Origin: Rathayibacter tritici
GTDB lineage: Bacteria; Actinomycetota; Actinomycetes; Actinomycetales; Microbacteriaceae
NCBI RefSeq assembly: GCF_002932875.1
Contig: NZ_PSWS01000002.1
Span: forward strand, 1 to 64,000
Reading direction: 5' to 3'
Length of the DNA: 64,000 nucleotides
Part shown: positions 57,626-62,529 of the stretch, piece by piece
Layout of the letters: each line of letters starts with the position of its first letter
Numbering within the stretch: position 1 is the stretch's first letter
Notes under the pieces: generated by a model
Database searches by the model: none
What the model was told of the DNA's origin: nothing
What the model saw: only the letters and a program-made list of their open reading frames with translations
Program-made: the position numbers and the translations under genes

Positions 57626-57667
57626 TGCGCCCGGAGGGATTCGAACCCCCAACCTTCTGATCCGTAG
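57626..57667 (-). other. tRNA-Arg(ACG) 3' half = attachment site at the left end of the element
   Basis: Read on the minus strand it begins CTACGGATCAGAAGG (anticodon loop with ACG and half-stem), then variable loop, the T arm with GGTTCGAATCC and acceptor strand ending GGGCGCA. The 5' half (D arm, other anticodon strand) is absent on the right: 57668 onward is unrelated. A tRNA 3' end duplicated by integration leaves exactly this. The intact tRNA should be at the right end beyond the window. Confidence 0.8.
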
Positions 57668-57805
57668 AAAGAGTCGCGGCGTCCACAGACGTCCGGTGGT
57701 CACGCGGAGCTGCGTAGCGTCCGTCCACACGATCCGGTCCGACAGCTACGGATGCGCTCGCGTTGCTGTCACGGTTGCTGTCTGCGCCCGGTCGGAGACC
57801 CTGTG

Positions 57806-58429
57806 ATGGATCAGGACTGGACCAGCGTCTTCCTGCCGGCCCTCATGCCCGATGCTCCAGCCGGCCACCCGCGTATGCGGGCAGATGTGCTTCCTCCAAG
57901 CGTCTTCGGCTCGAACGTCCGGGGCATCGCTCGTGAATCCGAGTGGGACAGGACTCGACTCGCGGTTTCTGCACGCGCCGGGAAGCTCTGCGAGATCTGC
58001 GGCGACCAGTCTCACGGTCCCTTCGGCAAGGTTCAGCACCCCGACTGCCACGAGATCTGGCGATTCGAGATGCGCGACGGCGTTGTGACCCAGGTGCTCG
58101 CTGGCCTCATCGCCCTCTGCAAGAGGTGCCACAACACCCAGCACATCGGTCGGGCGCTAGACCTCGAGGACGTCAACGACCGACTACAACTCGTGAACGG
58201 CTGGACCCACTCGGAGGCTCAGACAGACATTCGTCGCGCGTTCCGCCGACTCAAACTCTTGGAAGGACTCGATGTCGATCTCGACCTGTCGGCCCTGCTT
58301 GGTCAGCTCGCCGTCCCAGGCTCGCCGGACCTGCACTTCACGGCGGCCGAGCGCTTGCTCCGGGGCAACTCATGGGAGCGATCGCGCCCCGCTCCGCAGG
58401 CCACCCAGCTCGATCTTGGGCTCGGCTAA
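57806..58429 (+). CDS. HNH-type zinc protein
   Basis: 207 residues. A metal site LCEICGDQSHGP, then HPDCHEIWRFEM (HNH-like His/Glu) and IALCKRCHNTQHIG form CxxC...HxxCHE...CxxCH, a family of HNH-like proteins common in phages and plasmids. WDRTRLAVSARAGKLCEI before the first Cys fits. ATG 57806 (GTG 57803 is adjacent). Might be a nicking endonuclease or a structural Zn protein. Cargo at the left edge of the element, 139 bp from the att site, convergent with the DUF262 gene. Confidence 0.7.
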   Translation: MDQDWTSVFLPALMPDAPAGHPRMRADVLPPSVFGSNVRGIARESEWDRTRLAVSARAGKLCEICGDQSHGPFGKVQHPDCHEIWRFEMRDGVVTQVLAGLIALCKRCHNTQHIGRALDLEDVNDRLQLVNGWTHSEAQTDIRRAFRRLKLLEGLDVDLDLSALLGQLAVPGSPDLHFTAAERLLRGNSWERSRPAPQATQLDLGLG

Positions 58430-58625: not shown

Positions 58626-60434
58626 TCACACCGTAGTCGTGCTGAGGAATCGACGCATGAGTTCTGTGACGGCAAGGCCCTGGACCTCGTGTGTCGAATT
58701 GCCCTCTCGCACATTGAAGCCTCCGTTCCAAGACACCGGCGCAGCACCTGCCTTCGGGCGAAGCGACCAGACGGTGTAACCCTTGTAGTCAAAAACGGAG
58801 AGCGTCCCGGCAAGCTGCGACGCGAAGGCGGGATCAAGCTTTGATTCACGAATCCGTTGCGCGAGCCACTGCATTTGCTTGTCTCTATTTCGTCCGAGAG
58901 CCGTCAGTTCGTGTTCGGTGCCCGTGACCAAGAATTTCCCAACCTCGAGCGGCACGACAGAGTACAGTTCCGCGATCCGTTTGGCATGCTCTGGCCGGTC
59001 GGCTACTCCGAAGAAGATAAAACCTTCCGCCCCAATCGCGTGGTTTGCCATGGCTGATGCAGTGCGGAGGACCGACTCGAACGCATCATCATCGAAGACC
59101 TTGGTCTCGTCCAACCGAGTGAATCCCTGCTTCAACTCGAAAAGCGAATGCTCGGTTAACGCCATTTGCATCTGTATCTCAAACTCCGTCGCCGTTTGCT
59201 TGGATCGCACTGCGACAGGATCATCACTCGCCTTGAAGAAGGGTTTCAGGATGGCTTTAATCGAATCAAACAGAGGACGCTTTCGATTGGAGCCCCAGTT
59301 TCCTCCACCGGCCGGGATGGTCAGGTCCCTGTCCCAGAAGTGCTCCAGCTTCTTGGTGAGGCCCGGGAGGTCCTCAAGCTCGTTTCCTTCCACGAGCAGC
59401 TCATGAACTGCAACGAAGATTGCGTGAAAGTAGCGGGGAATACCACGAGGGTTGCGCTGCGTAATCACCCAAGTAGCCCAAGGCTTGCCGGAGTCGTCGA
59501 TCGTCTGCTTAATGATATCCAAGGCCGACAGGTAATTGTGCTCTATGTTCTCGACGCCGAGAGAGTTGATCCGATTAGCAACCGTACTCTCCGATGCTGT
59601 GGCGTTATCGTCGCGGCCATAAGCGGAATTACGGTAAGCACTTCCGCTCACCGCGATGGGGTCGAGAATGACATCTAGCAACATGTCGAGGACAAGTTCC
59701 TCATCTCTCGACTCCCGGACCGCCTCCCGGTCAAGGATGCCATTCTTTACCCAGAAGACCTCGTCGCTGGGGATACCGTATGGAAGATCCTTGTTAGTGA
59801 TACTGATTTTTGGCATCTCGGACAACGGCAAGGTCTCGGACAGAGACGCGTCACCACGAATGCTGGCACTTATACGACGCACCAATCCGGCAACTTCCGA
59901 CGTAACCCCTGCCTGGCGGATCTCCTGGAGACTGAGCTTCCTACCGGACGAATTAATTCGCCTGAAGACTTCGTCGACCGATTCTTCTGTCGCGGACCGG
60001 TAAGTAGATACCGGCAGCTGATAGTTCACAATCGCGACGCATGTTTTTCGATCCAGAACAGGCTCGCGCTGCAGCAGCGACCCTTCATCGCGTCGCAACT
60101 TCGTGTCGGCTAGCGTCTCGAGGTCAAAATAGCCGCCGTCATACGGAAACTCATTCTCGATGAACGAGAATATCGCGTTAAGCCTCTGCAAGCCATCGAT
60201 GATCTCGAGCCTTGGCTGATTGGACGCGACGCTTTCCGCGAGCAGGACCAAGGGGATCGGCAGACTGTTGCGCACGGAATCGATGAGGGACTGCTTTTCC
60301 TCGACGTCCCATACCAGCTTTCGCTGGTAACGGCGGTTCACAACGAACACTCCCTGGGCGTACTGAGTGTACAGATTCTGCAAACTCTGTCCGAGAACAG
60401 TCAGTTCGGTGTTGGCAACGTTGGCTTGCGTCAA
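58626..60434 (-). CDS. DUF262 + AlbA_2 (Schlafen-like) protein, candidate defence cargo
   Basis: About 602 residues. N-terminal DUF262 (~10-350): FVVNRRYQRKLVWDVEEKQ, SLIDSVRNSLPIPLVLLAES and the key LEIIDGLQRLNAIFSF (~75-90), the ParB-like nuclease/NTPase core used by GmrSD, SspE-type and other anti-phage proteins. C-terminal AlbA_2 domain (~425-600): HSLFELKQGFTR, ASAMANHAIGAEGFIFFGVA, as in Schlafen-like nucleic-acid-binding proteins. TTG 60434 with AGGGG nine bases before it and a -10 TACGCT (60467-60462) upstream is preferred to ATG 60485, which would lie before the transcript start. Less GC-rich than everything around it. Joining the two domains is unusual. Confidence 0.75.
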   Translation of the reverse strand: MTQANVANTELTVLGQSLQNLYTQYAQGVFVVNRRYQRKLVWDVEEKQSLIDSVRNSLPIPLVLLAESVASNQPRLEIIDGLQRLNAIFSFIENEFPYDGGYFDLETLADTKLRRDEGSLLQREPVLDRKTCVAIVNYQLPVSTYRSATEESVDEVFRRINSSGRKLSLQEIRQAGVTSEVAGLVRRISASIRGDASLSETLPLSEMPKISITNKDLPYGIPSDEVFWVKNGILDREAVRESRDEELVLDMLLDVILDPIAVSGSAYRNSAYGRDDNATASESTVANRINSLGVENIEHNYLSALDIIKQTIDDSGKPWATWVITQRNPRGIPRYFHAIFVAVHELLVEGNELEDLPGLTKKLEHFWDRDLTIPAGGGNWGSNRKRPLFDSIKAILKPFFKASDDPVAVRSKQTATEFEIQMQMALTEHSLFELKQGFTRLDETKVFDDDAFESVLRTASAMANHAIGAEGFIFFGVADRPEHAKRIAELYSVVPLEVGKFLVTGTEHELTALGRNRDKQMQWLAQRIRESKLDPAFASQLAGTLSVFDYKGYTVWSLRPKAGAAPVSWNGGFNVREGNSTHEVQGLAVTELMRRFLSTTTV

Positions 60435-60727
60435 TTTAGATATCCCCTCAGATCTGGTGCCAGCGTATCGAAAGTGGTCCCCCATGCCCAGCCCAGATCA
60501 GGCGGCGTCGTTTCAGCACTGGTTCCCAGGTGCGGCTTCAACGCCGTCCGACGGACCTCGTCGGTCGACGAAGCGGCTGGACGGCCGTAGCTCACACATT
60601 TGGCTTCCTCCGAGCAGTTTTCTCCGGCTGTCGTCAGCCAATCAAGGATTCAATCAAGGGGTCCTGAGGAACATCTTCCTGGAACACAGGTCGTGCGCAG
60701 CGGCGCACCCGATCCAGGAGGAACACC

Positions 60728-61129
60728 ATGCCAGTGAAGAAATCAGGTCTGCCGGTCAACAGCGAGAGCTACTTCGGAGGGCCGGCTTACGCGGTCGGTG
60801 ACGCGGAACCGCTCATCGAGTTCGTTGACGGTAAGCCGGCCGGCCAGCAGCACGACAGGGACACCGGGAAGCCACTGTGGACGGTCCGGGTGTTTGACAC
60901 CGACCCCGAGGCTCCCAAGGGTCAGGGTGAGGTCACTGTCAAGGTTGTGGCCGCTACACCGCCCGCTCTGCCTGCGGAGCTACCCGGGCTCCCCTTCCGC
61001 CCGGTCATCTTCGATGACCTCGTGGTCGTGCCCTACGTCAAGGAAGGGAATGGCCGGCCCCGCGTCGCATACTCGCTGCGTGCAAGCGGTATTCGCCCGG
61101 TTGCTGCGCGGAAGGCCGGCGACTCATGA
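60728..61129 (+). CDS. SCO3933-like plasmid/AICE regulatory protein
   Basis: 133 residues. SGLPVNSESYFGGPAYAVGD, GKPLWTVRVFDTDPEAPKGQ, LPFRPVIFDDLVVVPYVKEG is the pattern of the small protein always found before the translocase in AICEs and Streptomyces plasmids. Its exact function is unclear; regulatory or transfer-accessory. AGGAGG seven bases before the ATG. Overlaps the translocase ATG by 4 nt (ATGA). The 240 bp before it should carry the operon promoter, which I cannot fix. Confidence 0.75.
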   Translation: MPVKKSGLPVNSESYFGGPAYAVGDAEPLIEFVDGKPAGQQHDRDTGKPLWTVRVFDTDPEAPKGQGEVTVKVVAATPPALPAELPGLPFRPVIFDDLVVVPYVKEGNGRPRVAYSLRASGIRPVAARKAGDS

Positions 61130-62529
61130 TCGTCGCCGAACTACGGAACTATGGCGCTGCGCTGAGGTCGGTCGTCAAGCGAAACAAGGTGGCCACGGCT
61201 CTCTTTGTCGCGACGGTCGTCCTCTTCGGACAGTGGCGACCCGCCCAACTCGTTCTGGGCGCGACACTACTCGTTCTCATCCTCAGCGCCCTCGTTTGGC
61301 GGTACCGAGACGGCCCGAACCTCGCTCGCCACCAGTTCCATGTCTGGCGGCGACGTCAGTCCGCCTACATCCTTGCCGTCTGGCCCGAGCTGATGCTCCG
61401 GCTTGGACTTGCCGTCCGAGTCGCGCAGTCCGCGCCGGAAGTTCCTACGATCCGGTCGGCATCGTGGACCGGTCACTCTCAGATGCTCAGAGTTCTGATC
61501 CCTATGGGGATGGAGCGAGACCGGCTCGCGCTCGCGGCGTCGGCCATTGCGGAGTCGCTTGGATCTGTGGCCGTCACCGTTGATGCAGCACCGGGCGGAG
61601 CGAGCGTGACAGTTCAGTTCGCGGATCCGCTCGCTCAGCCGGTCATGGTTCCGGACCCCGGCGACCATGTCGACCTCCAAGCAGTGCCGATGGGGATGGA
61701 ATCCTCGGGTTCGGCCTGGACGCTCCGTGTTGGACCGCACACGCTCGTCGCCGGTTCATCAGGCTCAGGTAAGGCCTCGATGATCTGGAGTCTGCTCATC
61801 GGGCTCGCTCCCGCCATCCGCGAGGGGCGGATCGAGGTCTACGGCGTCGACCTCAAAGGCGGCATGGAGCTGACGATGGGTCGGGGGCTACTCACGCAGT
61901 ACGCGACCGAACCGGAGGCGGCAGTCATCCTCCTCGAGCGCGCCGTCGTTCGCATGCAGGCCCGAGCTGCGGAGCTGGCCGGCAACGTTCGCGAACACAC
62001 CGCGACCGTCGAGAGCCCGCACATCCTGATCGTCATCGACGAGCTCGCGGCGCTGACCGCGTATCAAACCGCTCGTGACCTCCTGCGCCGTGCGAACAAT
62101 GCACTCGCACTGCTGTGCTCGCAGGGTCGCGCTCCTGGCCTCACTGTCTTTGCGTGCCTGCAAGACCCGCGGAAGGAGACGCTGCCAGTGCGAGGACTCT
62201 TCACACAGACGATCGGTCTTCGCCTTCGCGACGCGATGGAGACCGCGATGGTGCTCGGTGAGGGAATGCGCGAGAAGGGCGCTCTGTGCCACCAGATCCC
62301 GTCCACGCTGCCCGGAGTCGCGTTTGTCGCGCCGGACAAGGGCGGAGATCCCATCCGGGTTCGTGCCGGCTATGCCTCCGACGAGGTCATTCGGTACACC
62401 GCGGCGCGCTACCCGGCTCCACGGCACGAGGTCGTTCTCGCGCCGGTTCCCTCGACCGTCGATCCAGAATCCGCGACATCGCGACCTCGCCGGCCGCGTC
62501 GCAGCCGCAAGACAGGAGAAGCAGAATGA
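61126..62529 (+). CDS. FtsK/SpoIIIE-type DNA translocase (TraSA-like)
   Basis: 467 residues. Two N-terminal membrane segments (ATALFVATVVLFGQW, AQLVLGATLLVLILSALVW), then the motor: Walker A VAGSSGSGKASMIW (~209), Walker B HILIVIDELAAL (~301) and LLCSQGRAPGLTVFACLQDP. This hexameric pump moves double-stranded DNA between hyphae or cells in AICE conjugation. Lys-Ala in GSGKA replaces the usual Ser/Thr but occurs in this family. ATGA overlaps at both ends. Confidence 0.9.
   Translation: MIVAELRNYGAALRSVVKRNKVATALFVATVVLFGQWRPAQLVLGATLLVLILSALVWRYRDGPNLARHQFHVWRRRQSAYILAVWPELMLRLGLAVRVAQSAPEVPTIRSASWTGHSQMLRVLIPMGMERDRLALAASAIAESLGSVAVTVDAAPGGASVTVQFADPLAQPVMVPDPGDHVDLQAVPMGMESSGSAWTLRVGPHTLVAGSSGSGKASMIWSLLIGLAPAIREGRIEVYGVDLKGGMELTMGRGLLTQYATEPEAAVILLERAVVRMQARAAELAGNVREHTATVESPHILIVIDELAALTAYQTARDLLRRANNALALLCSQGRAPGLTVFACLQDPRKETLPVRGLFTQTIGLRLRDAMETAMVLGEGMREKGALCHQIPSTLPGVAFVAPDKGGDPIRVRAGYASDEVIRYTAARYPAPRHEVVLAPVPSTVDPESATSRPRRPRRSRKTGEAE

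Follow-up and report, generated by a model that had tools for sequence, protein, structure and literature searches.

A DUF262-AlbA_2 fusion protein, a widespread family and candidate one-gene anti-phage system on mobile elements

DUF262 has been described as a switch and as a sensor of modification (PMC10952713, PMC12137116). In the relatives of the protein reported here it binds and hydrolyses NTP and regulates an effector located at the C-terminus, and mutations in either the NTP site of DUF262 or the DUF1524 nuclease deprive GrwA of its activity, DUF262 being read as the sensor; QR, DGQQR, and FxxxN are the motifs that have been named for GmrSD-type sensors (PMC12137116). Schlafen-linked systems are cited as anti-phage RNases (PMC12839542). 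The triad E205/E210/D248 of rat SLFN13 is required for full tRNA cleavage (PMC5862951), and human SLFN11 couples DNA sensing to a block of translation via RNA cleavage (PMC11615386).

We analysed a gene that combines a DUF262 and a Schlafen-type AlbA_2 domain in one polypeptide chain. It is located on contig NZ_PSWS01000002.1 of Rathayibacter tritici, within what we refer to as the window, i.e. the whole stretch of 64,000 nucleotides that was analysed. An initial annotation, made from the letters of the DNA, had stated that no described system with exactly this pair was known to its author. This holds for the literature searched, but the pair is not new to databases, as a scan of GTDB contigs retrieved 311 relatives and PHROG_26759 has the same architecture. 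The literature search for a DUF262 + AlbA_2 fusion returned no description, and the 169 P2-hotspot systems in Table S5B of PMC9122126 may include it. DUF262 together with Schlafen led to PMC3710099 only, where the terms stand in separate passages, neither of which describes a fusion. Among the matches listed for the Schlafen/GmrSD/ParB and the DUF262/tRNA/abortive-infection literature there is likewise no description of the fusion.

Table 1. The fusion gene, its domains, and the neighbouring features in the window. Residue numbers of the window protein refer to the long form (619 aa).
Feature	Position	Strand	Remarks
DUF262-AlbA_2 fusion gene	58626..60434	-	602 aa from TTG
Alternative start of the fusion gene	ATG at 60485 (58626-60485)	-	619 aa (long form)
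Shine-Dalgarno-like GAGGGG	60444..60449	-	9 nt before the TTG start; read from the letters
DUF262 / GmrSD_N domain (putative sensor-NTPase)	59910..60380	-	residues 36-192, Pfam E 9.6e-23
DUF262 motifs QR (54-55), DGxQR (97-101), FxxxN (174-178)	within 59910..60380	-	
Linker region	59154..59909	-	residues 193-444, without Pfam match
SLFN_AlbA_2 domain	58647..59153	-	residues 445-613, with E445, E450, K452, D496, R593
HNH endonuclease-like protein of the element	57752..58429	+	PHROG_5200, 8.9e-23; homologue in L167
3' half of tRNA-Arg(ACG)-like gene	57627..57668	-	read from the letters
Conserved 133-aa protein	60728..61129	+	upstream of the FtsK gene; 52-55% identity in L164-L167, 43% in L040
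FtsK/SpoIIIE-like (TraSA-type) transfer protein of the element	61126..62529	+	Pfam, PHROG, Microbacterium relatives

Architecture and conservation of the fusion protein

The fusion gene is intact in the window and has a good ribosome site (Table 1). We prefer the TTG start over the upstream ATG because GAGGGG precedes it at a distance of 9 nt and because most of the 80 relatives described below are aligned by tblastn from residue 18-32 of the long form onwards. The GC content of the gene is 55.4% as compared to 71.2% in positions 1-57600 of the window, in agreement with the early remark that its base composition is unlike that of the host, and it is also lower than that of the element's own HNH gene (65.2%) and FtsK module (65.8%).

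The 80 best of the 311 relatives, the sequences of which were retrieved, span nearly the whole protein, length having been determined for these 80 and not for the other 231. Together with the window protein, 74 of these 80 loci make up the alignment of the family (A2, 75 rows), from which six loci with stops in the translated stretch were omitted (L018, L037, L052, L069, L071, and L079). The 75 aligned members are drawn from 7 phyla and the tree requires 16 phylum changes as compared to a possible minimum of 6, such counts being no proof of transfer; for the 18 actinobacterial rows one change suffices. The DUF262-AlbA_2 fusion is thus a widespread family and not a rare one. Of 198 Microbacterium genomes only 2 contain the gene, and these two are part of the set of 80 loci. 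A dN of 0.13 and a dS of 1.85 separate the Microbacterium copies L006 and L007, which shows purifying selection between these two close copies; in comparisons with the window copy dS reaches saturation.

That both domains reside in one protein, as had been read initially, is borne out by the profile searches, in which GmrSD_N is matched in 75/75 and SLFN_AlbA_2 in 72/75 aligned members (E 0.01; best AlbA_2 match 2.2e-11). In the window protein the Pfam match to SLFN_AlbA_2 covers residues 445-532 (E 2.4e-4) and, taken alone, lies under the cut-off of Pfam for this domain (22 vs 25.3 bits). In a profile-profile comparison (hhalign) the C-terminal part of 40 of the 75 members (A5) was matched to seven ordinary AlbA_2 domains, i.e. 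those 7 of 11 loci that a simple motif caught (A6), with 97.8% probability and an E value of 1.2e-12. Thus, the family-wide matches and the profile comparison settle the identity of the AlbA_2 domain despite the single-sequence score below the cut-off. In this comparison E450 and K452 pair with the second Glu and the Lys of EFK, GVAD pairs with GVND, and R593 with the arginine of YVR, whereas E445 is located just beyond the aligned block and, with the pairing extended without gaps, coincides with the first Glu. PHROG_26759 matches residues 28-613 in one single stretch (6.6e-82), so that the fusion is not an artefact of this genome. The linker between the two domains may be helical, a suggestion made only by analogy to GmrSD proteins.

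The motif and active-site residues are conserved across the whole family. On the side of the putative sensor Q54, R55, D97, G98, Q100, R101, F174, and N178 are invariant, each being present in 75/75 rows. In the C-terminal domain the same is true for E445, K452, G493, and R593; position 450 is acidic in 75/75 rows (58 D, 17 E) and D496 is conserved in 73/75 (1 N, 1 E). Forty further rows, 35 from viral contigs and 5 from plasmid or E. coli copies, extend this picture: the full-length ones retain DGxQR, E445, D/E450, and K452, position 496 is a Glu in six of the 40 (L123, L124, L125, L128, L154, and KE47), and some of the columns are missing from L136, L146, L150, L151, L153, L156, and L157, which are fragmentary or broken. 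The first two acids, E445 and E450, are 5 residues apart and thus have the same spacing as E205 and E210 of SLFN13. Judging from the alignment, from which the equivalence is taken, the fusion family has an acidic triad of the SLFN13 type, and we infer that its AlbA_2 domain is an RNase.

DUF1524, the HNH nuclease domain of GmrSD, is matched in 0/75 members at E 0.01, and no NCBIfam model has matches in more than one of the 75 members. The PADLOC models that match the protein, NsnA (1.1e-26) and PD-T4-2_A (4.6e-19), cover the DUF262 part only (approximately residues 34-208). A search of PDB sequences with the DUF262 part gave a weak match to BrxU (7p9k, E 0.0014). PDB sequence matches to the photoreceptor 2mwg (E 0.00032 and 0.00022) were taken as chance, since the acids of E-x4-E-x-K are unmatched there.

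The lack of DUF1524 argues against the possibility that the protein is a variant Type IV restriction enzyme, in which the DUF262 half would be the DNA nuclease, the AlbA_2 half would only bind DNA or RNA to provide specificity, and modified phage DNA would be cut without killing of the cell. This possibility may draw on the name given to the E. coli members by RefSeq, 'GmrSD restriction endonuclease domain-containing protein', and on PtuX, which also lacks DUF1524 and is read as putative ParB/Srx-type nuclease (PMC11980606). However, GrwA is inactive when either DUF262 or DUF1524 is mutated, with DUF262 read as sensor (PMC12137116), and the acids of the AlbA_2 domain are near invariant, which simple binding would not need; we consider restriction of this kind unlikely.

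Genomic context in integrative elements, phages and plasmids

In the window the fusion gene is solitary, being flanked by the HNH gene at the tRNA-like fragment on one side and by the FtsK module on the other, i.e. it sits alone in a cargo slot beside an HNH protein, just as the initial annotation had it. As to the tRNA junction postulated there, ARAGORN lists no tRNA for the window, but positions 57627-57668, read on the minus strand, correspond to the 3' half of tRNA-Arg(ACG), a remnant of the kind to be expected where an integrated element ends. The core of the fragment occurs once in the window, and a search for the fragment in 6 genomes of the genus gave no match. As read from its letters, the fragment is the probable attachment-site end of the element. 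The proposal of an integrative element is supported by the FtsK gene and by the occurrence of its two-gene module in 4 Microbacterium loci; the window ends within the element, so that the FtsK gene and the tRNA-like 3' fragment are inside and the integrase end is beyond it. To the left of the tRNA fragment a 973-aa protein is encoded on the minus strand (window:54384-57305), the C-terminal hydrophobic stretch of which is followed by arginines, and which is probably a cell-wall-anchored surface protein.

Relatives of the FtsK gene (E at most 1e-40) are present in 7 of 119 Microbacterium genomes, and four of these seven loci were opened (L164, L165, L166, and L167). The 133-aa gene adjoins the FtsK gene in all four, and L167 additionally contains a homologue of the HNH protein of the element. 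The slot that we compared is reached within about 1.1 kb on the upstream side, beyond a single small ORF, and corresponds to the place of the fusion gene in the window; cargo proteins were picked from the cargo stretches and scanned 10 per scan. In L164 (L164:415-7543) the slot holds a restriction-modification enzyme of Type ISP/IIG with an AAA_13 protein next to it (PDC-S06 of PADLOC). In L165 it combines a methylase of Type III with a helicase of the ResIII type and a DUF4357 protein (PDC-S14). L166 (L166:3507-7759) encodes a methylase-like protein together with a PRTase-CE and an ORC-CDC6-like protein, the latter having no match in PADLOC and the PRTase-CE protein being scanned by Pfam only. 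We take these two proteins to have a role in conflict systems, and the gene set of L166 is probably a conflict-system set. Two cargo proteins of L167 (L167:6278-8137) are without clear family, with one weak 'cll' match, and may, by their position, be defence genes of a new type. The slot of the element thus contains clear defence genes in 2 of 4 cases and probable ones in a third, the fourth being unclear.

A second type of carrier is represented by P2-like phages. IMG/VR contributes 35 relatives on viral contigs. When these were mapped against the genes of P2, 10 of them (L128, L130, L132, L133, L134, L135, L138, L147, L153, and L155) proved to have the fusion gene in the interval between gpA and gpQ, adjoining the portal gene. 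These 10 cases are not independent, as L133, L134, and L155 are nearly alike in their late genes, and the copy of L153 is broken. In P2 itself this slot is occupied by old and tin, and in P2-like phages it is a hotspot of anti-phage systems, examples of which have been tested (PMC9122126). In E. coli KO11FL, a laboratory strain, a copy (WP_000818977.1) is annotated beside the portal gene of a P2-like prophage. A second P2-like slot is used in L125 (between V and S), in L136 (beside V, with a broken copy), and in E. coli KE47. L005:8761-10891 and L125 are P2-like prophages that have the fusion gene between the tail genes V and S. The idea that this second slot is the Z/fun slot was rejected, the P2 gene next to V being the nonessential orf30. 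In INPHARED 80 records have a match, and in none of them does it extend over 80% of the protein.

Relatives are also borne by plasmids, e.g. by L002 and L001, which are typed as conjugative or mobilizable. Some of the E. coli plasmid copies are interrupted by insertion sequences; intact ones exist, e.g. that of L002. At least 80% of the protein is covered in 145 of the 1537 PLSDB records with a match. Among complete E. coli genomes (n = 5426), 26 have a match to the KO11FL-type copy, which is covered to at least 80% in 17 of them; the KE47-type copy reaches this coverage in 28 genomes. The plasmid-type copy matches 824 genomes, 862 of its 918 match places being on plasmids, and most of the E. 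coli plasmid copies are incomplete, only 133 genomes keeping at least 80%, a count that includes KE47-type places. This incompleteness, together with the stops in the translated stretch of 6 of the 80 loci, some of which are perhaps artefacts of the chosen ends, would be compatible with a decayed or inert passenger gene without present function. Such a gene would not be expected to show a dN far below dS, as found between L006 and L007, motifs that are invariant over 7 phyla, and, in the window, an intact reading frame with a good ribosome site, and we regard the passenger reading as highly improbable.

Neighbouring ORFs were picked by a simple rule and clustered by blastp. No recurrent partner gene was found, as the 627 ORFs located at most 5 positions from the fusion gene form no blastp cluster that occurs in more than 5 of the 80 loci, and the hypothesis of a partner gene was rejected on these grounds. 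Thus, the system, if it is one, would consist of a single protein. The largest cluster, from 5 actinobacterial loci, resembles a GntR/UTRA-type regulator by sequence reading, and Pfam GntR and UTRA are found in 2 of 139 neighbours.

For 44 of the 80 loci the whole genome was included; 35 of these entered the control comparison, and the integrase test comprised 34. An FtsK-like gene lies within about 8 kb in 5/35 loci as compared to 0/35 control windows of the same contigs, whereas single seeds for recombinase, IS, or relaxase genes near the fusion gene gave no difference (2/35 loci vs 1/35 controls) in a test that is too narrow. Of 34 genomes, at least 5 (G004, G020, G021, G029, and G044) have an integrase (PF00589) no more than 15 kb away vs 1.64 expected (P 0.021); this distance was chosen once the list of matches had been read, and the expectation uses all 295 matches, the observed number only the best ones. 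Among the nearest two ORFs on each side, integrase, resolvase, and Mrr_cat are each matched in 2 of 139 proteins and in fewer than 2 of 133 control proteins (133 of 140), as tallied from the 25 of 130 Pfam families listed for the neighbours and the 25 of 163 listed for the controls. PADLOC matches are few and scattered among neighbours and controls alike, with one match to the reverse transcriptase of type III-A retrons and one to the III-A PRTase among the neighbours. The neighbours are only mildly enriched in mobile genes, which is weak when taken alone, and it is the evidence from the slots that carries the case for defence.

AlbA_2 domains are also read as DNA-binding regulator domains. 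In this capacity AlbA_2 may contribute to the maintenance or regulation of the carrying element, i.e. to its copy number, its transfer, or the exclusion of related elements, and one might refer to plasmid copies beside transfer or partition genes, to other copies beside FtsK modules, and to the GntR/UTRA-like cluster in 5 actinobacterial loci. The carriers, however, are unrelated and include an integrative element, P2-like phages in two slots, an F-type plasmid, and a MOBH plasmid, and no gene of an element was seen to travel with the fusion gene, making a role in element maintenance rather improbable. Those homologues that could be placed, which include a minority of the chromosomal ones, sit in the P2-like slot, on plasmids, or in the cargo stretch of the element, i.e. 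in mobile or defence slots, and no housekeeping role was seen among them; this survey favours the earlier reading of the gene as anti-phage candidate.

Proposed function

Taken together, we think it on balance probable that the fusion gene is a one-gene anti-phage or anti-mobile-element system of the abortive-infection type that travels as cargo of mobile elements. The N-terminal DUF262 domain may recognise foreign or modified DNA, as in GmrSD, BrxU, SspE, and GrwA, and NTP binding and hydrolysis by this domain would act as switch. Once switched on, the AlbA_2 domain would employ its E-E/D-D triad to cleave tRNA or another RNA, and this cleavage would halt translation so that the phage could not multiply. 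As both domains are part of one protein, a path from sensing via an NTP switch to RNA cleavage is the simplest mechanism; what is sensed, the order of events, and the phenotype are what we infer.

In a wider and more tentative view, to which we give slightly less than even credence, the family would constitute a one-protein abortive-infection system that is spread across at least 7 phyla via phages, plasmids, and integrative elements and in which a GmrSD-type NTPase sensor fires a Schlafen-type tRNase. Its logic would resemble that of SLFN11, and, seen from Type IV restriction, the effector would have been swapped, turning DNA cutting into translation arrest. If this is true, DUF262 would be a general plug-in sensor capable of controlling not only a DNA nuclease but also an RNase that arrests translation, a role that would help to explain why DUF262 recurs in many defence systems. 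Moreover, it would provide a function for many genes that are annotated as 'DUF262' or 'GmrSD restriction endonuclease domain-containing' though the restriction nuclease is missing.

Relation to described systems

Several systems share parts of this architecture. PFLU4242, a protein with DUF262 to which the fitness cost of a plasmid is traced, was considered as a member and dropped as it is a DUF262/DUF1524 protein (PMC11637435). Menshen (NsnABC) and PD-T4-2 contain proteins, NsnA and PD-T4-2 A of PADLOC, that match the DUF262 part of the fusion, but the likeness is confined to approximately residues 34-208 and their companion genes are not recurrent here. The same architecture in full length is found in phages as PHROG_26759, a family of unknown function.

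Three further systems combine DUF262 or Schlafen-type domains in other ways. In ptuXYZ a DUF262 protein without DUF1524 is likewise paired with an RNase, but the system comprises three genes, including a PtuA-like ATPase and an RNase of the BECR fold (PMC11980606), whereas here one protein carries a putative RNase domain of another fold. VNG7073 also has DUF262 and an RNase domain in one polypeptide (HEPN + ParB(DUF262) + HNH), the RNase, however, being HEPN and an HNH domain being present as well (PMC3710099). The bacterial Schlafen (AlbA_2) RNases resemble the fusion in their Schlafen-type RNase domain and their defence setting, and differ in being fused to a minimal histidine kinase and a wHTH near BREX (PMC12839542), whereas here the partner is DUF262 and the gene stands solo.

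GmrSD, BrxU, SspE, and GrwA have the same layout as the fusion family, i.e. an N-terminal DUF262 domain with the motifs QR, DGxQR, and FxxxN, a long linker, and a C-terminal effector, and they occur in defence and mobile contexts, too. Their effector is a DUF1524 HNH nuclease, whereas that of the fusion family is a Schlafen AlbA_2 domain. As DUF1524 is missing, with 0/75 matches in the members and no recurrent partner gene in the 80 loci, the fusion family is by definition not a GmrSD restriction enzyme and, as judged from its predicted domain and triad, the fusion protein is of the Schlafen type.
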